A stretch of DNA of 25,081 nucleotides from a virus. The position numbers and the translations under genes were made by a program. This document shows, piece by piece, positions 1-14,741 of the stretch (position 1 is the first letter of the stretch; the number at the start of each line of letters is the position of its first letter). The DNA lies in IMG/VR virus record IMGVR_UViG_3300020400_000035, positions 1 through 25,081 of that record. One strand, 5' to 3'. The notes under the pieces are model-generated. The model saw nothing but the letters and a program-made list of their open reading frames with translations. It was not told where the DNA came from and did no database searches.

Positions 1-820
1 CAAATGGTTTATTGAATCTTGTTTTCATTACTTTAACTGCTGATCTAATACCAGTAACATCTGATATCTTGTTTCCAGATTCATCTTCTTTAAGTTTTAG
101 TTTTTTCATAGCAACAACAATTGAACTTGCATATACAAATCCTTGTCCGCCACTAATCTTATCATCTGGATCAAACATATCCTGTGATGCGTATGTGTGA
201 TTCGTACAAACTAATCCCAAGTTCAACTCAGCGAACATGTTAACACAATTTCTTACAAGTGCTGTTAAGGCTTTTGGTTTTCTACCCATGTCACCTTTCA
301 AATCACCTTTTTCAAATTGTGCAGTGTCTGTTGGAGTCAGCAACATACCCAATGAATCAATTACAAACATAACTTTTGGTCTTTCGCTAACCTCTAGCGA
401 ACCATAATCGTTTCTATAATTTGTTACAAACTCAGAAATAGTTTTTGCTACATCATCAATCATTGCTACGTTGATACGCATTAATTTTTCTGGGGATGTA
501 TCCACTTCAAGTGCTTGTAACCAATTTTCATCTAATGCATTTTCTGAATCAAACACAATACAAAATATACCTTGCTTTTGTGCATTTTTGATAATGTTAC
601 CAGAAGCAACCAAACTCTTACCAGAACCTGATTCACCTGCCAACATTGTTACACGGCCTAGTGGTATACCTTTGTTAAAGTCGCCACTGATCAAATAGTT
701 TAGGCAGTAGTTTCCTGTTGAAATCCATGTGTCCGGATCAGAATCAAAACCTGTAGAAATACCACCGATGCTTTTTGTTATTGACTTTCTAAATTTACTT
801 ACGTCAAATGGTCTTACCAT
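1..820 (-). CDS. uvsX: UvsX RecA-like recombinase (3' end cut by window edge)
   Basis: Strand-exchange recombinase of the T4 UvsX/RecA family, which polymerises on gp32-coated single-stranded DNA for recombination-dependent replication and repair. Translating the minus strand gives about 273 residues. Walker A GESGSGKS lies at about residues 62-69 and a Walker B-like VMFVIDSLGM near residue 150, followed by the RecA-fold regions around TNHTYAS and ISGGQG. T4 UvsX is about 390 residues, so roughly the last 120 lie beyond base 1. The ATG at 820 is preceded by AGGAG with 5 nt spacing, which fixes the start. It lies directly downstream of gp32, its functional partner, and has its own sigma70-like promoter overlapping the gp32 stop. 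Identification is from motifs and translation by eye; confidence is high. Confidence 0.95.
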   Translation of the reverse strand, partial: MVRPFDVSKFRKSITKSIGGISTGFDSDPDTWISTGNYCLNYLISGDFNKGIPLGRVTMLAGESGSGKSLVASGNIIKNAQKQGIFCIVFDSENALDENWLQALEVDTSPEKLMRINVAMIDDVAKTISEFVTNYRNDYGSLEVSERPKVMFVIDSLGMLLTPTDTAQFEKGDLKGDMGRKPKALTALVRNCVNMFAELNLGLVCTNHTYASQDMFDPDDKISGGQGFVYASSIVVAMKKLKLKEDESGNKISDVTGIRSAVKVMKTRFNKPF

Positions 821-841
821 AATTTCTCCTTGTCTGTAATA

Positions 842-861
842 GTGCATGATTGCTCATGCAC
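842..861 (-). promoter_or_regulatory. Hairpin in the gp32-uvsX junction, near the uvsX mRNA 5' end
   Basis: Perfect 7-bp inverted repeat GTGCATG/CATGCAC with a 6-nt loop. It has no U-tract on the minus strand, so it does not look like an intrinsic terminator. The transcription start predicted from the promoter at 866-894 is about 859, so this stem would sit at the extreme 5' end of the uvsX mRNA, where it may protect the transcript. Alternatively it is an mRNA processing or attenuation site for gp32 read-through. Confidence 0.5.
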
Positions 862-865
862 CACT

Positions 866-894
866 ACTATACTATATTTTACTTGTTTTGTCTA
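866..894 (-). promoter_or_regulatory. Sigma70-like promoter for uvsX
   Basis: On the minus strand, -35 TAGACA (889-894), a 17-bp spacer and -10 TATAGT (866-871). The -35 overlaps the last codons of gp32 and the uvsX ATG is at 820, giving a predicted leader of about 39 nt that begins with the hairpin at 842-861. It would allow early uvsX expression independent of gp32. Confidence 0.55.
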
Positions 895-1907
895 GCTCTA
901 ATCATAGCCAAAATATCATCTGCTGATGCTTTTGACTTGTCTTCAGTTGCTGTTGCTGTTGCAGTAGCAGTTGCCACTTCTGGCTGTGCCACTGGTGCTT
1001 CTACTTTTGCTTCTACAACAGGTGTTTCTACTTTTGCTTCTGCCTGTGGAGCAGGAGTCGGAGTAGATGTTGCTGTTGTTGTTGCAGTTGTAGTTGCTGA
1101 TGCTTTCGAACTTGGTGATGATGCCATTCCAGCTGGTCTGTAATACTGACCAAATCTGCTTTCATCATATAATTCACCATCAACTGATGCTTTAAACATT
1201 TCTGCGATTATTTTTACTTCTTCCGCAGAAGGTTTCTTAGGAAGATAATCACCTAGATTATGTAACCCATGAGAGTCGATTGCTGATCTTTCACTATCAC
1301 TTACTGATCTTTCTTTGAAAGACCAAGTTGAAGTTGAATAATCTGCATAACCACCTTTTTGAGTTTTGGTTAATTTGAAGTCCCTACCTTTATCAATATC
1401 AGTTGGCAGATCTTCCATGTCTGGATTCATCAATGCTGATCTAATAATGTTAAAGATTGACGGATTAATTACAAAACGTCTAATTGGATTCTCCGGTGTT
1501 GAATCTTCTTCAAGTGGAGAGTTAACAACAAAACCTTGGAAAATGTATGAACGTTTTTTCCAGTATTTTCTACCCATGTCTTCTAGACTTGGATCTTTAA
1601 ACCATGGACGAATTTCACTTAATACTGGACATGGTTCTCCCCACATCTCCATACAAGGAACTTGTACCGTAGTTGGTTTTGCTTCAGACTGACCTTTGAT
1701 ACCAGCAAATGGTAATCTAATCATTTGTCTTTCAACCCAAAAGAAAGTATTGTTTGGATCTTTGTCTGATAAAAATCTTAGTGTTGCTGTTGTGCCTTCA
1801 GGAATATTCCAGAACGGATAAATTGCGTTGTCGCCTCCTGAACTATTTGGTGAACGTTTTACTTCTTGTTCTTGAAGTTTTGCTCTTATTTCTGCTAAAG
1901 TTGCCAT
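879..1907 (-). CDS. 32: gp32-like single-stranded DNA-binding protein
   Basis: Coats single-stranded DNA at the replication fork and during recombination and recruits partner proteins. Protein of 342 residues (T4 gp32: 301). The basic N-terminus (MATLAEIRAKLQEQE) resembles the cooperativity domain, followed by the OB-fold core (about 25-230) with aromatic-rich YPFWNIPEG, KYWKKRSYIFQGFVV and FGQYYRPAG. Only two cysteines appear in the zinc-site region (C85 and C93, in VPCMEMWGEPCPV), fewer than the T4 His/Cys3 set. Residues about 265-330 are a low-complexity Ser/Thr/Ala/Val/Pro linker containing ATTTATTTATS-like and KVETPVVEAKVEAPV repeats. The C-terminus (DDILAMIRARQNK) ends basic, unlike the acidic T4 tail. 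The leader carries four 10-nt repeats ending in the ribosome-binding site. It precedes uvsX. Confidence 0.93.
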   Translation of the reverse strand: MATLAEIRAKLQEQEVKRSPNSSGGDNAIYPFWNIPEGTTATLRFLSDKDPNNTFFWVERQMIRLPFAGIKGQSEAKPTTVQVPCMEMWGEPCPVLSEIRPWFKDPSLEDMGRKYWKKRSYIFQGFVVNSPLEEDSTPENPIRRFVINPSIFNIIRSALMNPDMEDLPTDIDKGRDFKLTKTQKGGYADYSTSTWSFKERSVSDSERSAIDSHGLHNLGDYLPKKPSAEEVKIIAEMFKASVDGELYDESRFGQYYRPAGMASSPSSKASATTTATTTATSTPTPAPQAEAKVETPVVEAKVEAPVAQPEVATATATATATEDKSKASADDILAMIRARQNK

Positions 1908-1910
1908 AAT

Positions 1911-1950
1911 GTATTCTCCTATATTAGCCTATGTTAGCCTATGTTTGCCT
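1911..1950 (-). repeat. Four tandem 10-nt repeats forming the gp32 leader (candidate autoregulatory operator)
   Basis: Reading toward gp32, the units are AGGCAAACAT, AGGCTAACAT, AGGCTAATAT and AGGAGAATAC, in exact 10-nt register and followed by ATT and the ATG at 1907. The last unit contains the Shine-Dalgarno AGGAG. T4 gp32 represses its own translation by binding cooperatively to an unstructured repeat-bearing leader, so this array is a natural candidate for the same role. Confidence 0.7.
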
Positions 1951-1957
1951 AAATTAA

Positions 1958-1979
1958 ATAATGTTATTCTCAACATTAT
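1958..1979 (-). promoter_or_regulatory. Hairpin at the 5' end of the gp32 leader
   Basis: Perfect 8-bp inverted repeat ATAATGTT/AACATTAT around a 6-nt loop. It lies at the predicted transcription start (about 1978) and immediately before an AU-rich run and the 10-nt repeats. In T4 a 5' pseudoknot nucleates gp32 binding on its own mRNA; this hairpin is in the equivalent place. I could not identify a second pairing that would make it a pseudoknot. Confidence 0.55.
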
Positions 1980-1984
1980 CTACT

Positions 1985-2013
1985 AGTATATTTATTCTTT
2001 TTGTATTTGTCAA
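1985..2013 (-). promoter_or_regulatory. Strong sigma70-like promoter for gp32, overlapping a late TAAATA box
   Basis: Minus strand: -35 TTGACA (2008-2013), 17-bp spacer, -10 TATACT (1985-1990). A TAAATA late-type box (1989-1994) overlaps the -10, so the same site may serve both early and late transcription. Predicted start is about 1978, giving a leader of about 71 nt that contains the hairpin and repeats. Confidence 0.7.
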
Positions 2014-2027
2014 GTGATTTTTTGAAG

Positions 2028-2064
2028 AAAAAGAACCATAGTATAGAAACCTTAGGTTCTTTTT
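2028..2064 (-). terminator. Intrinsic terminator after the 745-residue gene
   Basis: Minus strand AAAAAGAACC pairs with GGTTCTTTTT (10 bp, 17-nt loop) and ends in a run of U, starting 16 nt after the stop of the gene at 2080. It separates the long late operon from the gp32/uvsX early unit. Confidence 0.65.
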
Positions 2065-2079
2065 GTTGGGAGGTGTTTA

Positions 2080-4317
2080 CTAAAGACCTGCTAGATCTTT
2101 AATTCTTTGAATATTTTGATCTTCGTCTGCTTGTTCGTTAACTTCGTAACCAGCTTTTGATAATACATCTACTACAGCACGTTCTGGACTCATTGTGTGA
2201 ATATTTACGCCACCTTGTATCATTTCGTTTGGTTCACATGATGCTTTAATGCCAGCTTTTCCTAATAACAATTCCATTTCATCACAATCTTTATCTGTGA
2301 TTCCTCTGTCCATGTCATAGTCACCGTCAACTCTGAGTGTGTGCATATATGGTTCTGCTGTACCTTCATAACCACTTGCTTCAGTTCTTGCATTTTCCAT
2401 TTCATCTGCAATAGCATTTAACCAAGTTGGCTCTGATGGATGTCTATCACCATCTGATACGTCAGCATAACCAATTGAGTCTGCTTCTTTTCTTAGCATT
2501 GCAATAATTTCTTGTTTTGATTTACCTGCATACATGCTCTTAGGATCTTTAATATCACTCATTACTGCATCTTTGTATTCTTCAAAGTCATGCATGTCAG
2601 CAAATCTTTCTGAATCTAAATCTGCTTGAGTCATTGGCTCTTCTTTCATGCCTTTTTCTTTTGCTTCAGCATCTAATTCTGCTTTACGTCTCATTAATTC
2701 TTTTTTAAGTTTTTCATCTTTGTGAGTGTTTGGATCCATTTGAATATCTTGTAAGGCTTTTTTCTTTGCCATGTAATCTTCTTTGTCTTTAATGCCAGAA
2801 TCATGTGACTCATTCTTTTTACTTAATCTCTGTATTTCGTGACAGTTGCAATGAGCACAATCTGGACCACATGAACATTCCATTACTGGTGCACCACAGC
2901 ATACTTCTGGACATACCAATTTGCCATCTACTTTTCTTTCAAGCATAAATGATTCATCTTCACCAAATGGTGCTACTGCTTCTTCTAATTCTGTTTCTGG
3001 ATTTGGAACAATGTCTTCTGCTTTTGGCAATGCTTCTGGTTCTGGTTTGACCGTTTTCATACTTGCCGCTTTAATAATTGCTTTTGCAACTTGATTTTCT
3101 ATTTCAGTTGGTTGCGGTGCAAATTTGCTAGTGTGCATGTGTCCGTACTTGTCAGAAAGTCTTGATAAAAATACACTCATTTCATCATCTTTAATTCTAC
3201 CTGCCAAGTCTGCTAATCTAAATGAAATTTTTGCTTCTTTGTTAGTAAATGCACCAACTTGTTCTGGATCATAATCTGTTTTTGCAGGTGACATTAATTC
3301 TACTTCTTCACCTGACTTTAATCTTTGCATAATTCTTTGTGCCATTGCTGGAGTTGTGTTGTCTTGTTCTTTTTTTGCTTCATCTACAATTGATTGTAGT
3401 AAAGGAAGAACTTCACCAATCTTTTCATCAAATTTTGTAACTGTAAATTTGTCTTTTAATTCTTCAAGTGCTTCAATTGTTGGCTCTACTGATTCTGATG
3501 CTTTGTAGTTTTCTACAAAGTCAGCATAACCACTTGCAGTTGTTAACTTGTGAATTGATTTTTTAATATTTCCAATTTTATTATCAACTAATGGTAAAAT
3601 ATCTGCCGCTTGTTCTTGTACTTGACTAAAACGTCTTGCGTATTTTGTAACTTCTTTTAATTTTGCTAATTGATCTGATAGGTTAACAATTGCTTCACCT
3701 ACTTCATCATGTGGTTTACCACCTGCGTGTACGTGTCTTGCCATTGCTCTAGCACCATTTAAATGAATGTGTGGATATTTAAATCTTTCACCTTCTGATG
3801 TTTCTACGAAAATACCTTGAATATTTCTTGATCTTGCACCTCTGCTAGTTTCATCAACTGCTTTATTGTGTCTAACGATCACCTTTACACCTTCAAGTTT
3901 TTGTTCACTTGTTTTTGTTGATCCTTGTAACGGTGTATAACCTTCTGTTTGTAATTCACTCATTTGCTTTTCTGTCCTATTTTGATCAATTTTAAATGCA
4001 TAGTTTTTTGGTTTTAACTCTTTACCAAAAATCCTATGATCAAAATCTAGCATATAACTTTTTGAAATATGCTTAATGTTATTTATGACTCCTTTAACTT
4101 TTTCGTCTGTTTTTTCAGAACCCTGATGTAGTTTAATTTCACTATTATCTGGGTCAAGATGCACCATATAATTAGGTTCTTTTACGTAAAAATAACGTGA
4201 TTCTTCTGGATTTACTGTTTCATTACCAGTAGCAGAGTCATACATTTTGACATCATGCCCAGAACCCTTGATGATTTTAAATATCTTACTCGAAATTGTG
4301 TTATAATCTACTGCCAT
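2080..4317 (-). CDS. Conserved phage protein with an eight-cysteine cluster, function unknown
   Basis: Protein of 745 residues, directly downstream of gp17. The N-terminal 230 residues are mixed alpha/beta, including a stretch near 163-230 (SRNIQGIFVETSEGERFKYP then RAMARHVHAGGKPHDEVGEA) that recalls conserved proteins of T4-like marine phages; that resemblance is from memory. Residues 230-420 are helical and charged. Residues 469-493 hold eight cysteines plus a terminal histidine (C469, C473, C474, C481, C483, C487, C490, C492, H493), a likely metal-binding knob. The rest is acidic and helical. The late box TATAAATA ends 5 nt before the ATG with no ribosome-binding site, suggesting a leaderless late mRNA. 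Length and late context suggest a virion or packaging-associated protein, but no function is assigned. Confidence 0.85.
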   Translation of the reverse strand: MAVDYNTISSKIFKIIKGSGHDVKMYDSATGNETVNPEESRYFYVKEPNYMVHLDPDNSEIKLHQGSEKTDEKVKGVINNIKHISKSYMLDFDHRIFGKELKPKNYAFKIDQNRTEKQMSELQTEGYTPLQGSTKTSEQKLEGVKVIVRHNKAVDETSRGARSRNIQGIFVETSEGERFKYPHIHLNGARAMARHVHAGGKPHDEVGEAIVNLSDQLAKLKEVTKYARRFSQVQEQAADILPLVDNKIGNIKKSIHKLTTASGYADFVENYKASESVEPTIEALEELKDKFTVTKFDEKIGEVLPLLQSIVDEAKKEQDNTTPAMAQRIMQRLKSGEEVELMSPAKTDYDPEQVGAFTNKEAKISFRLADLAGRIKDDEMSVFLSRLSDKYGHMHTSKFAPQPTEIENQVAKAIIKAASMKTVKPEPEALPKAEDIVPNPETELEEAVAPFGEDESFMLERKVDGKLVCPEVCCGAPVMECSCGPDCAHCNCHEIQRLSKKNESHDSGIKDKEDYMAKKKALQDIQMDPNTHKDEKLKKELMRRKAELDAEAKEKGMKEEPMTQADLDSERFADMHDFEEYKDAVMSDIKDPKSMYAGKSKQEIIAMLRKEADSIGYADVSDGDRHPSEPTWLNAIADEMENARTEASGYEGTAEPYMHTLRVDGDYDMDRGITDKDCDEMELLLGKAGIKASCEPNEMIQGGVNIHTMSPERAVVDVLSKAGYEVNEQADEDQNIQRIKDLAGL

Positions 4318-4322
4318 ACTTG

Positions 4323-4330
4323 TATTTATA
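4323..4330 (-). promoter_or_regulatory. T4-type late promoter box TATAAATA (leaderless start)
   Basis: Exact TATAAATA on the minus strand, 5 nt before the ATG at 4317. No -35 TTGACA is seen about 17 bp upstream. The same arrangement occurs before gp17. Confidence 0.7.
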
Positions 4331-4335
4331 CTTTC

Positions 4336-5931
4336 CTATATGATTATTGGCATCGGATCTTGATAATCATCATCGTCATCTAATTGAGCTCCTAATGATT
4401 GCTCCATTGTAGCGTCATATTTTGTTAAAAAATCCGTCATACGTACTACTAATAACAATGCTGATACTAAATCATCATGCTCCCCTGATTTTGCTTCAAA
4501 AGAATTACCTTTTGCAACAAATACTTTTAGTTCTCTTATAAGTGGTTTTGAAAATAGTGTAATTTTATCTGTTTCTACCCATGCTTTTAGTTTAGAACAA
4601 GCAGTAACCTTTGATTTATTTGTAGTATTGTAACCTTTACGTACTACTCTACGTTGTTGACCGCCTTTACGTGGCTCATGTAAGAAATATCCTGGAAATT
4701 TATCTTCTCCCATTTCGTCAACAGTTACAATTGCGGCTTCACCAAGTGTATTATTTTCAATAGTCCAATATATTTCTGGATTTGGCGTGCCAGTTGCTCG
4801 TAACTGTTGATCTATTTCTTTGAGTATGCTGTGCATAACTCTAACTTGCCCCTGGATAGGCGTTTTGTTGTGTTGCCATTCAGCAACTTGTTTGAAATCT
4901 GGTAAACTAAACACTTGTATGGCCGCAAAGTCTCCACCTGTGCCCAAGCATGGATCCAATGATACCACATAAGTGTTACCTTTTTGCACTTTTTGATACC
5001 AACGCACTTGACCATGCTTCACTAAAGGTTGTGTTCCTTGTAATGTAATTAATTTTATACCATCAATAAGTGTTTCGTCAAAAGCGATAAACTCGCATTC
5101 ATGTTCTCTTCTAAATCTTTCTTCACCAATACGTTGTCTTTCTTCTTTGGCCCATTCATCATTTCTTTCAGGGTGTTGACTCCAGTGTACAAACTTCGGT
5201 CTGAAACCATTTAATCCTACTTCTGCTGGATTACCATATTCATCTTGTAATTTATTAGCACCTCTCCATAATTGTGCAAACAAATCATCATCATTATTTG
5301 GTGTAGATGTAATAATACATTTACCACCTGTTGACAAAGTTGGTGATAAGGAAGTCCAAAACTCTCTTGCTTTGTTTTGTGGTTCAACGAACGCAAACTC
5401 ATCCATGTATATCATTGAAATGGACATACCACGTCCTGTTGTTTCTGTGGTTGTTTGTGCTATGATCCTTGAACCATTATCAAAATCCATCGATCCTTTA
5501 TTATAACTTGTTACTCCACATCTAATATAGTCAGGACATTCTTCGTACGCAAATCTCACACGTTGCATAATATCTTGTGCACCTTGGTATTTGTGTGCCG
5601 CAATTAATATTAATGTATCCGGATGAAACATAGCATACCATAATAAGTATCCCGCCGCACAGGTTGTCTTACCTGTTTGCCTCGCACACATGGCGATAGC
5701 AAATCTATAACCATTATATGTTTCTAATAATTCTTCTTGGAATGGATATGGATTAAATTTCATACGTCCTTTAGTAGGATGTTGAATCCACATGTGTGTT
5801 TTCATAAAATGTATGTAACCATCTTTTAAATCTGCACACTTTTTTAAATCTTGTAATTGTTCTTCTGTGTATTTAGATTTTGCGTATGCTTTTTTGACTA
5901 GATTACCTTCTAAAACTTTACTGCGTGACAT
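4336..5931 (-). CDS. 17: gp17 terminase large subunit (packaging ATPase-nuclease)
   Basis: Motor that pumps DNA through the portal into the prohead and cuts the concatemer. Protein of 531 residues (T4 gp17: 610). The ATPase domain has Walker A ARQTGKTT at 83-90 and Walker B MIYMDE at 173-178, followed by the coupling motif region ITSTP (207-211). The C-terminal RNase H-fold nuclease has likely metal ligands D326 (VVSLDPCLGTGGD), E392 (TIENNTLGEA) and D486/D487 (EHDDLVSAL). The C-terminus is very acidic (run of Asp at 518-522). TATAAATA lies 5 nt before the ATG with no Shine-Dalgarno, so a leaderless late transcript is predicted. The small subunit gp16 is about 1.6 kb upstream on the same strand, not adjacent as in T4. 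Confidence 0.97.
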   Translation of the reverse strand: MSRSKVLEGNLVKKAYAKSKYTEEQLQDLKKCADLKDGYIHFMKTHMWIQHPTKGRMKFNPYPFQEELLETYNGYRFAIAMCARQTGKTTCAAGYLLWYAMFHPDTLILIAAHKYQGAQDIMQRVRFAYEECPDYIRCGVTSYNKGSMDFDNGSRIIAQTTTETTGRGMSISMIYMDEFAFVEPQNKAREFWTSLSPTLSTGGKCIITSTPNNDDDLFAQLWRGANKLQDEYGNPAEVGLNGFRPKFVHWSQHPERNDEWAKEERQRIGEERFRREHECEFIAFDETLIDGIKLITLQGTQPLVKHGQVRWYQKVQKGNTYVVSLDPCLGTGGDFAAIQVFSLPDFKQVAEWQHNKTPIQGQVRVMHSILKEIDQQLRATGTPNPEIYWTIENNTLGEAAIVTVDEMGEDKFPGYFLHEPRKGGQQRRVVRKGYNTTNKSKVTACSKLKAWVETDKITLFSKPLIRELKVFVAKGNSFEAKSGEHDDLVSALLLVVRMTDFLTKYDATMEQSLGAQLDDDDDYQDPMPIII

Positions 5932-5936
5932 ACATG

Positions 5937-5944
5937 TATTTATA
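5937..5944 (-). promoter_or_regulatory. T4-type late promoter box TATAAATA for gp17
   Basis: Exact TATAAATA followed by CATGT and the gp17 ATG at 5931. If the box is centred near -10, as in T4 late promoters, transcription starts at or within a base of the start codon. Confidence 0.72.
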
Positions 5945-5960
5945 CTAATTAAATGCGTAC

Positions 5961-6224
5961 TTAATGAATATTGAATATATCGTCTACAGGATTAAATTCT
6001 ACCTGTTGTAAGTGTCCTGAATGTGCCAAATAGATGTCTTGGATCACTGCATCTATATTGTCATGCCAATGATTTAGAAATTTATGGGCTCTTGGAAACT
6101 GTGGAGGTATATCATCAAACTGCCACATGAACAATTGTATCACACTTTGATAGTCAGGCATAAAATAATATACCTTCATTGTTGTGATTCTAGTATCATA
6201 AAGTATTTGATCTCTGATACGCAT
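5961..6224 (-). CDS. Small conserved-looking protein upstream of gp17, function unknown
   Basis: Protein of 87 residues, rich in aromatic residues and histidine (MKVYYFMPDYQSVIQLFMWQFDDIPPQFP, broken here only by residues; HKFLNHWHDNID). No signal peptide or transmembrane segment. CTAAATA stands 5 nt before the ATG at 6224 and supports the longer start MRIRDQ rather than the internal Met at residue 16. It is followed after about 29 nt by the gp17 start with its own late box. I do not recognise a function; position next to terminase suggests a late, possibly packaging-related role, which is inference only. Confidence 0.75.
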   Translation of the reverse strand: MRIRDQILYDTRITTMKVYYFMPDYQSVIQLFMWQFDDIPPQFPRAHKFLNHWHDNIDAVIQDIYLAHSGHLQQVEFNPVDDIFNIH

Positions 6225-11678: not shown

Positions 11679-14600
11679 TTAACTATAGCTCATATTCTCA
11701 CCAGTGTTCTTTATTCTGATCGGAATGTATATGAATTCAGCCGCTTTTGCTGGCTGTATCGCTACATCGATCCACATCTGGTTAGCATCAATTCTAGTTG
11801 GTGTGTTGTTTGAATCATCACAAACAACTAAGAAGTCAAATAATGCTCTTTTTGAAGCCAAGTCTGCTAAGAATCTTTCAAAAGTATCAGTTACTTGATC
11901 TCTTGTCATTCTGTCATTTAATTCAAACAAGAATGGTTTTGCAAGTTGATCAAATTGATATCTTAAGTAAACAATTAATCTTGCTACGTTAACTCTATCA
12001 AGTGCTGATGATACAGGGTGTAATGTTTTTTGACCAAACACTACTAAACCTCTGTTAGGCATAAATGCAATTGGGTTAACTTTCTTAGAGTATAGTGTAT
12101 CTCTTGAACCTTCACTTAATACAACTGAATTATATTCGCCCGTTTCTGAGTCAATATAACCAACTGATGATGCATTTGTTACTAAACCTCTTTGGTAACC
12201 TGCTGGTGCAAACCATTGGAATGCCGCGTTATCATTGAAAGCAATAGTTCTTAATGCTATGTGTGAAGCTGGAACAACAACGTTGTTACCTGCTAAATCA
12301 GTTGTTAATGCTGATGGATAATAAACAGATGAGTAAGTGTTACCTGATACTAAACCATCTTCACCGTTAGTTGTTGCATTTGCTGAGTTTGACATCCAGT
12401 TAGATACATCTGAAGGAGTTTTTAATCTAAATGGAGCATCAACAATAATAAATGCAGTTTCTTTTCTTGCTGTATTAAGAGCAATCATTTCATCATATGT
12501 TTCAGCATAACCTGGACATGCAATTAAATTAAAGAATCTTGAGTCTGCTCTAATTTCATCGTTTGATGTAAACACAGATTGTAAAGCTGTTACAACAACT
12601 TGTCTCTGTGCTTTTCTGCCCATGAATGGAGAACCATCTGCTTTGTTGCCCGCCGCATTAATCCAAATTGGACCAATGTCTGTGCCGTTAACAATATATG
12701 ATGTTTTGTATTCTTTTACATTGTAACCTGATACTCTAGTGTTAAACAACAATGTACCTTCTGCATAGTTAGCCGGATCAACTGCATCTGAATTAAATGA
12801 TGCATATGGTGAACCCCAACCTTGTGTTGCTGTTGTAGTACCTGCTGGGTCACCTACTGCATCACCAAACACAATGCCAGAAGCTGATGATTGATCAGTG
12901 TTATCAAGTAATACCCATGCACTTGTACCCGTGTTGTATCTGTAAATTTTTGGATATGCTTCTAATTCATTTGAGTCAATCCAAATGTCACCGTTTTCAA
13001 GTGCTGTACCATCTGATTGTTTAGTTGGTTCACTTGATACCATTTGTAAGTCTCTTAAACCTGAAGCCATACCGTTTTTACCAGTATTAACATTAGACGC
13101 TGTAAATGTGTCTTTTGAGTTTGCGTATGCAAACCATTTCATAGTACCACCGTCGTTTTCAGCAACATATAAATCTGCTGTTAAGTTAGTGTCATACCAT
13201 AAAGTACCATCTACTGGCGCTGTTGTTGGTGCGTTAGCTGATGCTTCATAAGCCAAATCGCTCCATAATGAAGCCATGTACCATGAATCAGAACCTGAAG
13301 CCATATTATCTGTGAAGCCTAAAGTTGCTGTTGTTACACCAATTATAGTACCTGCTGTTGTTGTATCTTCAATCCAAATGTTTTTACCATTTGTTCTTTC
13401 AAGTTTTAAGTACTCTTTTGTACCTGAACTTGCTTCGATTGATGCTACAACTGTTTTAGCCGCCAATTGTGTGTCGTTGTTAATTGCGCCAACGATTTCT
13501 GCTAGTGTTACATTTGAACCTGCACCGCCTGCCGCTGTTACTGTTACGTCTTGGTTACAAATATTAATTTTTAAACCTGTCTCTGCACCAGTTAAGTCAA
13601 TACCATTACCTGAAAGGTCTGCGGTCCCAGTAGCTGTTGTTGTAGTTCCAGTACCTCTTAATCTAATTGTGTATTCTACTTCTGGTGTTGAGTTGTTTGC
13701 TGTTTGTTTGTATGTTGCGTTATCAATTCTATCATTGTCCCACGCCGCATCATCTTCGTCATCAAATCTAACATACAATGAATTAGCCGCTGGTTTTAAG
13801 TCTGTAATTGCATTGTCATCATCAGCATATAATGGTGCTGAAATTGTTGACCATGTGTTTGTGCCTGTTGAAAAGTATTTTACTACTACGTTAGCACCAC
13901 CGCCAACTGCTGTTGATTTAATCCAAACAGAACCTGCCACTGCCGCACTTGGAGCCGAACCTGAACCTGGCTGTATGAATACAGCTGGTGTACCTGATTT
14001 TGCGGCAATCCATGTATCAGCACCACATTGGTACCATGTACCTGAAACTTTTTCCCAAAGTTTTGCAGTTGCTATTCCGTTTGTTGTGTTTGAACCGTTA
14101 GCAACAATAACAAAGTCACCATTTGCACCATAAGATGTTTTTGGTGTTCTTTCTGTATCGTTGTTTACGTTCGATGTTGCTGAAGCATTTGGTTCATCAG
14201 TTAATACTGCTGGAGTTTTTTTACTCCAATTTGTACCATCTGCTTGATATACACCCCAATTAGTTGACGCTGTGTCTAACCAATATGTTCCGTTATTTGG
14301 TGTACCTGCTGGAACGTTTGTTGAGCCTGTAAGTTGAGCTAAATCTACATCAGCACGAACTACGAACGCTCTATTTGAAATTCCTAAGTATGAATATGCG
14401 GCTAATAAACCGTATTCATTTCTTTCATCACCTGGCAACATAGTTGAACCAGCTGAATAAAATGTTGGTGTACCGAATGTCGATAACAGTTCTCTTTGTG
14501 AACCGATCAAATACGCTTTACCCACGTTTGCACTTGTAGTACCAATTGCTGTTGAATTTGTAGTGCTTGGATCAGCTTTGTCTTTTGCTGAAGCCACTAC

Positions 14601-14690
14601 AAATAAAGGCACTGTACCCTGTGATGCGCCGGCGTAAAACGATTCATCAGTTACTGTAACTGAAACACCCGGTGAAACTAAATCTGGCAT
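11679..14690 (-). CDS. 18: gp18 tail sheath protein with very large modular insertion
   Basis: Contractile sheath subunit surrounding the gp19 tube. From the ATG at 14690 the protein is 1003 residues (T4 gp18: 659). N-terminal sheath fold: MPDLVSPGVSVTVTDESF, GTVPLFVVASAKDKADP, YGLLAAYSYLGISNRAFVVRADVDL (to about 117). C-terminal core from about 695: TALQSVFTSND, FFNLIACPGYAETYDEMIAL, NRGLVVFGQKTL, LNDRMTRDQVTDTFERFL, IYIPIRIKNTGENM. Between them, residues 124-685 form an outward insertion with repeated G-x-x-W-x-D-T-like modules, one stretch of which is shared with gp14. The start is chosen for AAGGAGAGATTACA directly before the ATG; an in-frame start 51 nt upstream lies within the late box region. 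Confidence 0.96.
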   Translation of the reverse strand: MPDLVSPGVSVTVTDESFYAGASQGTVPLFVVASAKDKADPSTTNSTAIGTTSANVGKAYLIGSQRELLSTFGTPTFYSAGSTMLPGDERNEYGLLAAYSYLGISNRAFVVRADVDLAQLTGSTNVPAGTPNNGTYWLDTASTNWGVYQADGTNWSKKTPAVLTDEPNASATSNVNNDTERTPKTSYGANGDFVIVANGSNTTNGIATAKLWEKVSGTWYQCGADTWIAAKSGTPAVFIQPGSGSAPSAAVAGSVWIKSTAVGGGANVVVKYFSTGTNTWSTISAPLYADDDNAITDLKPAANSLYVRFDDEDDAAWDNDRIDNATYKQTANNSTPEVEYTIRLRGTGTTTTATGTADLSGNGIDLTGAETGLKINICNQDVTVTAAGGAGSNVTLAEIVGAINNDTQLAAKTVVASIEASSGTKEYLKLERTNGKNIWIEDTTTAGTIIGVTTATLGFTDNMASGSDSWYMASLWSDLAYEASANAPTTAPVDGTLWYDTNLTADLYVAENDGGTMKWFAYANSKDTFTASNVNTGKNGMASGLRDLQMVSSEPTKQSDGTALENGDIWIDSNELEAYPKIYRYNTGTSAWVLLDNTDQSSASGIVFGDAVGDPAGTTTATQGWGSPYASFNSDAVDPANYAEGTLLFNTRVSGYNVKEYKTSYIVNGTDIGPIWINAAGNKADGSPFMGRKAQRQVVVTALQSVFTSNDEIRADSRFFNLIACPGYAETYDEMIALNTARKETAFIIVDAPFRLKTPSDVSNWMSNSANATTNGEDGLVSGNTYSSVYYPSALTTDLAGNNVVVPASHIALRTIAFNDNAAFQWFAPAGYQRGLVTNASSVGYIDSETGEYNSVVLSEGSRDTLYSKKVNPIAFMPNRGLVVFGQKTLHPVSSALDRVNVARLIVYLRYQFDQLAKPFLFELNDRMTRDQVTDTFERFLADLASKRALFDFLVVCDDSNNTPTRIDANQMWIDVAIQPAKAAEFIYIPIRIKNTGENMSYS

Positions 14691-14741
14691 TGTAATCTCT
14701 CCTTCATAAAGTATGGCAACTATCTTGTTACCATTATACAT

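Follow-up and report, generated by a model that had tools for sequence, protein, structure and literature searches.

A conserved hairpin-and-repeat leader of a phage gp32-like gene as a candidate translational operator, with the same repeats preceding a DnaE-like polymerase gene in relatives

Autoregulation of gp32, the phage single-stranded DNA-binding protein (SSB), is a textbook case that has been described in detail for T4, T2, and RB69 only. The gp32 proteins of T4 and RB69 repress their own mRNAs via a 5' pseudoknot and an unstructured, repeat-bearing linker that leads to the ribosome-binding site; the pseudoknot nucleates cooperative binding of gp32 along the UUAA(A)-repeat linker and over the ribosome-binding site (PMC3014915, PMC535899). 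The T4 and RB69 operators differ in sequence, yet either gp32 represses either target (PMC3014915, PMC535899). The literature asks what happens in T4 relatives that lack the pseudoknot, and by what means an SSB without sequence specificity recognizes a specific mRNA.

The gp32-like gene and its leader

The window (the whole 25,081-nt stretch of DNA analyzed here, from a marine giant phage) encodes a 342-aa protein that the initial annotation took to be gp32, an assignment borne out by a match to the PHROG SSB family phrog_1192 (E = 7.6e-72) and by an AlphaFold model (pLDDT 72), for which the top six PDB matches are all RB69 or T4 gp32 cores (E = 2e-8 to 4e-8 for the best). The match to the Pfam gp32 family PF08804 (20.6 bits, E = 5e-4) falls under the curated gathering cut-off of 26.8. 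Judging by the model, this is a gp32-like protein with the predicted gp32 core fold. The gene lies between an upstream gene of a structural protein family and a downstream UvsX/RecA-like gene (Table 1), and the same order (structural gene-gp32-UvsX) is found in the giant phages GAP32, CBB, RaK2, and Phosso. Elsewhere, the window encodes a tail sheath protein of unusual length (1020 aa, phrog_10581; 11679-14741, minus strand).

The gp32 promoter appears to combine sigma-70-like and late-like elements (Table 1). TTGAC is conserved in many relatives' gp32 leaders, and TAAATA is present in 77% of the gp32 leaders vs 15% of the control leaders described below. T4 late promoters allow 5 nt between TAAATA and the transcription start, and the start is predicted here at approximately G1983 on the basis of that spacing. 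An inverted repeat with a T-run lies upstream of the promoter; its arms (2025-2037 and 2055-2067) are 92% complementary, but it was not called by a terminator scan, the loop being too long, and its role as a terminator is putative. TAAATA also adjoins many other window genes upstream, both on the minus strand (4328, 5942, 7519, 8135, 8573, 11581, 14751, 16911, and 24645) and on the plus strand (17913 and 21181); judged by sequence, these window-wide elements are consistent with T4-type late promoters.

Direct reading places the leader element on the minus strand where the initial annotation had located it. The hairpin, originally described as having 8 bp, actually comprises 12 bp, including some G-U pairs, with arms 1982-1971 and 1966-1955 and a 4-nt loop (1970-1967); it begins about 1 nt past the predicted transcription start and would be truly 5'-terminal if that prediction is right. 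The leader folds with z = -2.5 (4 of 200 shuffles were equally good). The hairpin is followed by ATTT and by four units, the last of which holds the Shine-Dalgarno sequence, upstream of the gp32 start codon (1907-1905, minus strand). The four repeats had been called exact, which is correct for their 10-nt spacing; the copies themselves are merely similar, the array detected by TRF (1918-1956, 10-nt period, 3.9 copies) having 82% matches. Units 1-3 conform to the consensus AGGCWAAYAT, and unit 4, which is in register with them, is the Shine-Dalgarno sequence, as had been noted: its AGGAG forms a duplex of -7.3 kcal/mol with the anti-Shine-Dalgarno, vs -2.4 kcal/mol for each of the three AGGC units. 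The linker between the hairpin and the AUG is about 47 nt long and largely single-stranded, with room for six to seven 7-nt (T4-sized) units or four to five 10-nt units. The suggestion that 10 nt approximates the site occupied by one gp32 monomer does not agree with the 7-nt site size of T4 gp32 (PMC10484735), which it exceeds. In an Rfam search of the window, no match reached the gathering score, and the matches obtained were at chance level. An earlier description of such a repeat-bearing gp32 leader was not found in the open-access literature.

Table 1 Features of the window and of related loci
Feature	Coordinates	Strand	Basis or remark
UvsX/RecA-like recombinase, truncated by the window end	2..820	minus	Pfam RecA, E = 1e-11
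gp32-like single-stranded DNA-binding protein, 342 aa	879..1907	minus	PHROG, Pfam, structure model
Repeat unit 4, AGGAGAATAC, with Shine-Dalgarno AGGAG	1911..1920	minus	Direct reading, anti-Shine-Dalgarno energy
Repeat unit 3, AGGCTAATAT	1921..1930	minus	Direct reading, TRF
Repeat unit 2, AGGCTAACAT	1931..1940	minus	Direct reading, TRF
Repeat unit 1, AGGCAAACAT	1941..1950	minus	Direct reading, TRF
Hairpin, UAGAUAAUGUUG-AGAA-UAACAUUAUUUA, 12 bp, some G-U pairs	1955..1982	minus	Folding
Predicted -10 hexamer, TATACT	1985..1990	minus	Same sigma-70-like promoter scan as -35
T4-late-promoter-like TAAATA	1989..1994	minus	Overlaps -10
Predicted -35 hexamer, TTGACA	2008..2013	minus	11/12 consensus with 17-nt spacer; top site in window 1-6000
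Terminator-like inverted repeat and T-run, AAAAAGAACC...GGTTCTTTTTCTT	2025..2067	minus	Upstream of the gp32 promoter
DnaE-like leaders with AGGCAnA repeats (relatives)	L137:5908-5935; L188-L263; G011/G012 DnaE loci
Structured RNA (relatives)	L352:12990-13330; L347:1325-1673	plus; minus	Covarying stems

Conservation and specificity of the hairpin and repeats

The conservation of the leader was examined in eighty relatives with 58-90% protein identity, and 73 leaders of other genes from the same contigs were used as controls. Pairing was tested by arm swapping because a first whole-leader MAFFT alignment misplaced some of the 3' arms. In these comparisons, for which the P values are optimistic because the sequences are related and non-independent and the hairpin limits were picked by eye, at least two units are present in 45% of the gp32 leaders vs 1.4% of the control leaders, the median best stem score is 21 vs 14 (P = 1.6e-10), and native arms outdo exchanged arms (in none of three groups did any of 5000 permutations do as well), the exchange costing about 4-5 kcal/mol. 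Down to about 58% protein identity, the sequence of the hairpin varies whereas the pairing is retained, and, according to RNAalifold, both sides have changed at 4 of 11 and 3 of 7 hairpin pairs. Purifying selection evidently acts on the leader: where the proteins are about 70-76% identical, the aligned leader sequences are 0.85-0.96 identical, compared to 0.49-0.57 at 4-fold sites. The most common spacing of the units is 10 nt (47 of the 83 intervals), although it varies in other clades. The initial annotation had tied its proposal to the behavior of the leader in related phages, and there both the repeats and their register are conserved. About a hundred natural variants, in which pairing and register are kept while the sequence has changed, define the determinants for a binding test.

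This conservation is the strongest argument against a chance pattern. Within the window, the two-unit pattern is confined to the gp32 leader (3 overlapping matches vs 0.08 expected; 0 of 100 shuffles). When the 2.9 million contigs of IMG/VR were searched with a 17-mer repeat probe, 20 contigs matched, 19 of them directly before a gp32 homologue. A degenerate two-unit 22-mer retrieved 88 stretches from IMG/VR, 80 of which are located 30-70 nt upstream of a gp32 start (for one of these, L132, the distance was taken from the visible N-terminus); of the remaining eight, five lie in DnaE-like leaders and one in a structured-RNA-like locus (L177), and L115 and L136 are unrelated arrays. At the relatives' loci, the density of GGC[AT]AA is 22.4 per kb in the sense strand of the leader, 0 in the antisense strand, and 0.48 per kb elsewhere. 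We also considered a general ribosome-binding motif, which was rejected given that AGGC occurs 20 nt or less from the start in just about 3-6% of the ORFs of five large contigs. Coding-sequence noise aside, the repeats in five large contigs are restricted to gp32, DnaE, and one RNA.

Other genes preceded by the same repeats

The finding is broader than the initial annotation could see: the same repeats also precede a gene for a DNA polymerase. About 30 distinct leaders from relatives were examined, and in nearly all of them AGGCAnA repeats that follow TAAATA reach the start codon of a gene for a DnaE-like polymerase (564 aa; Pfam DNA_pol3_alpha, E = 2.5e-41), which raises the idea of an SSB that controls more than its own gene. 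The hairpin-repeat module AGGCAAATGATAGAGTAGTAGTTGCTACTCGTAGGCACATAG is common to the gp32 and polymerase leaders of the 316-kb contig G012, with an identical 37-nt core in the search; this core is found again at two further polymerase loci and upstream of gp32 in the 328-kb contig G011, where the polymerase leader carries plain repeats instead of the module. If, as it appears, two replication-gene leaders have swapped a module, the best explanation is a shared binder that acts in trans, and gp32 is suggested as the simplest candidate for such a repressor with several targets. No DnaE domain was found in G001 and G004, so the polymerase is not a target throughout the relatives. Additional short DnaE-like fragments are present in G011 (141689-141904, minus strand), G012 (312974-313186, plus strand), and G002 (184095-184331, minus strand), the last of these with one internal TAG.

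Fifteen contigs (G001, G004, and 13 others) contain a structured RNA that is apparently non-coding and at least about 300 nt long. Its 5' end carries AGGCA repeats after a TTGAC promoter, and RNAalifold predicts 60 pairs, 9 of them with two-sided changes. The RNA has no match in Rfam, and tRNA or tmRNA identity, which was also considered, was not found. An 80-aa coiled-coil/transmembrane ORF, rather than gp32, is preceded by TAAATA, by a hairpin, and by GGCTAA repeats at two further loci (L093, ~3150-3260, minus strand, and L181:1360-1500); the two hairpins differ in sequence while the pairing is kept.

Candidate mechanism and comparison with known operators

Taken together with the T4 precedent, the leader probably acts in cis as a translational operator that lets the gp32-like SSB repress its own mRNA. 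Transcription would start at about 1983, yielding an mRNA that opens with the hairpin followed by the repeat linker. By analogy with T4 and RB69, gp32 in excess of the available single-stranded DNA would bind the leader, possibly nucleating at the hairpin and spreading cooperatively along the repeats, such that the protein coat would reach and cover the ribosome-binding site; the 10-nt unit probably sets the preferred contacts or register for this particular gp32. In the larger relatives, the operator probably also acts in trans on the DnaE-like polymerase leader, since its repeats recur there, accompanied in one genome by the hairpin module as well. More tentatively, and with considerable doubt, free SSB might repress, in trans and at the level of translation, a replication regulon that includes its own mRNA, the DnaE-like polymerase mRNA, and the structured RNA, via AGGCWAAYAT with or without the hairpin; if so, the synthesis of replication proteins would be matched to the amount of single-stranded DNA. 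T4 gp32 binds nucleic acids with little sequence preference. The conservation of repeats containing G and C appears to go beyond the needs of a non-specific coating protein, which counts against gp32 as the ligand of the operator.

Because the element also precedes the DnaE-like polymerase gene, the 80-aa ORF, and the conserved structured RNA, a different RNA-binding factor could be the ligand, such as a phage regulator with a role like that of RegA, which would coordinate gp32 with DNA polymerase and the structured RNA. We consider this improbable: the RegA family was unmatched in six large relatives (in a search run without a positive control), gp32 is the most common and most elaborate target, and the T4 precedent points to gp32. 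Nor does it seem likely that the leader merely raises gp32 production without autoregulation, with the hairpin blocking 5'-end-dependent decay and the AGG repeats serving as standby or decoy ribosome sites. Such a function would be in line with the position of the hairpin at the predicted 5' end, with the unusual stability of the T4 gene 32 mRNA (PMC3014915), and with the presence of AGG in every unit of the window. However, the AGGC units pair only weakly with the anti-Shine-Dalgarno (-2.4 vs -7.3 kcal/mol), and repeats without AGG are retained in relatives (the Atu_ph07 repeat TTAGCACAA and the CBB/GAP32 repeat AAGAAGCAAA), which also weakens the decoy role put forward in the initial annotation; moreover, such leaders are mostly absent from other genes, including structural ones, and a stabilizing role does not require a conserved repeat register.

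The 10-bp spacing, close to one helical turn, and the location of the repeats directly downstream of the promoter might instead indicate a DNA-level operator, in which a transcription factor would contact the repeats along a single helix face. This we regard as very improbable: the repeats are always in a single orientation and occur only between the transcription start and the start codon, the final unit is the Shine-Dalgarno sequence, the spacing varies in other clades, a compensating RNA hairpin lies upstream of the repeats, and in the polymerase leaders the units reach the ATG.

With respect to gp32 autoregulation, which we favor, several cultured giant phages offer a comparison. In most of Atu_ph07, CBB, GAP32, Munch, RaK2, and PA5oct, the structural gene-gp32-UvsX order is present, and in several, a repeat-bearing A-rich linker precedes gp32; the repeats are lineage-specific (TTAGCACAA; ACAAAGAAGCAAA) and occupy the same pre-gp32 site (L104:620-700 in Atu_ph07, L106/L107 in CBB and GAP32, and L109 in Munch). 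In the Agrobacterium phage Atu_ph07, the leader combines its TTAGCACAA repeats with a hairpin. The PA5oct gp32 leader lacks such repeats and contains a possible pseudoknot: a candidate H-type structure, AGTTTTGC/GCAAAACT with AACCC/GGGTT, could form in PA5oct (L103:630-680) and Cassandra (L361). The AACCC/GGGTT pairing in PA5oct was equaled in 8 of 200 shuffles, and the near-identical Cassandra leader yields no covariation; going by sequence, the arrangement in these two phages could be closer to that of T4 than the arrangement in the window is.

The gene 43 operator of T4 and RB69 (PMC3014915) resembles the candidate operator of the window in that a leader hairpin and a sequence proximal to the ribosome-binding site control a replication gene. 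In gene 43, however, the hairpin is a distinct one to which the polymerase itself binds, whereas here the polymerase and SSB leaders share repeats. The likeness to the gene 32 operator of T4, T2, and RB69 is closer, with a 5' RNA structure near -70 upstream of an unstructured repeat linker and gp32 downstream (PMC3014915, PMC535899), a final repeat region that overlaps the Shine-Dalgarno sequence, and a layout that is kept while the operator sequence diverges among phages. The T4 architecture claimed in the initial annotation is thus present as regards the 5' structure, the repeat-bearing single-stranded linker, and the Shine-Dalgarno sequence, but no sign of a T4-type pseudoknot was detected in this lineage, where loop-to-linker pairing is not in clear excess over shuffles, none being reported for the window itself. 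In place of the H-type pseudoknot and the A+U-rich linker with UUAA(A) repeats (the T4 leader was read for comparison), the window leader has a plain hairpin and GC-containing AGGCWAAYAT repeats at 10-nt spacing and, unlike in T4, T2, and RB69, repeats of this type also precede a DnaE-like polymerase gene in relatives. The best reading appears to be an arrangement that works like the T4 operator, with a plain hairpin and GC-containing repeats instead.
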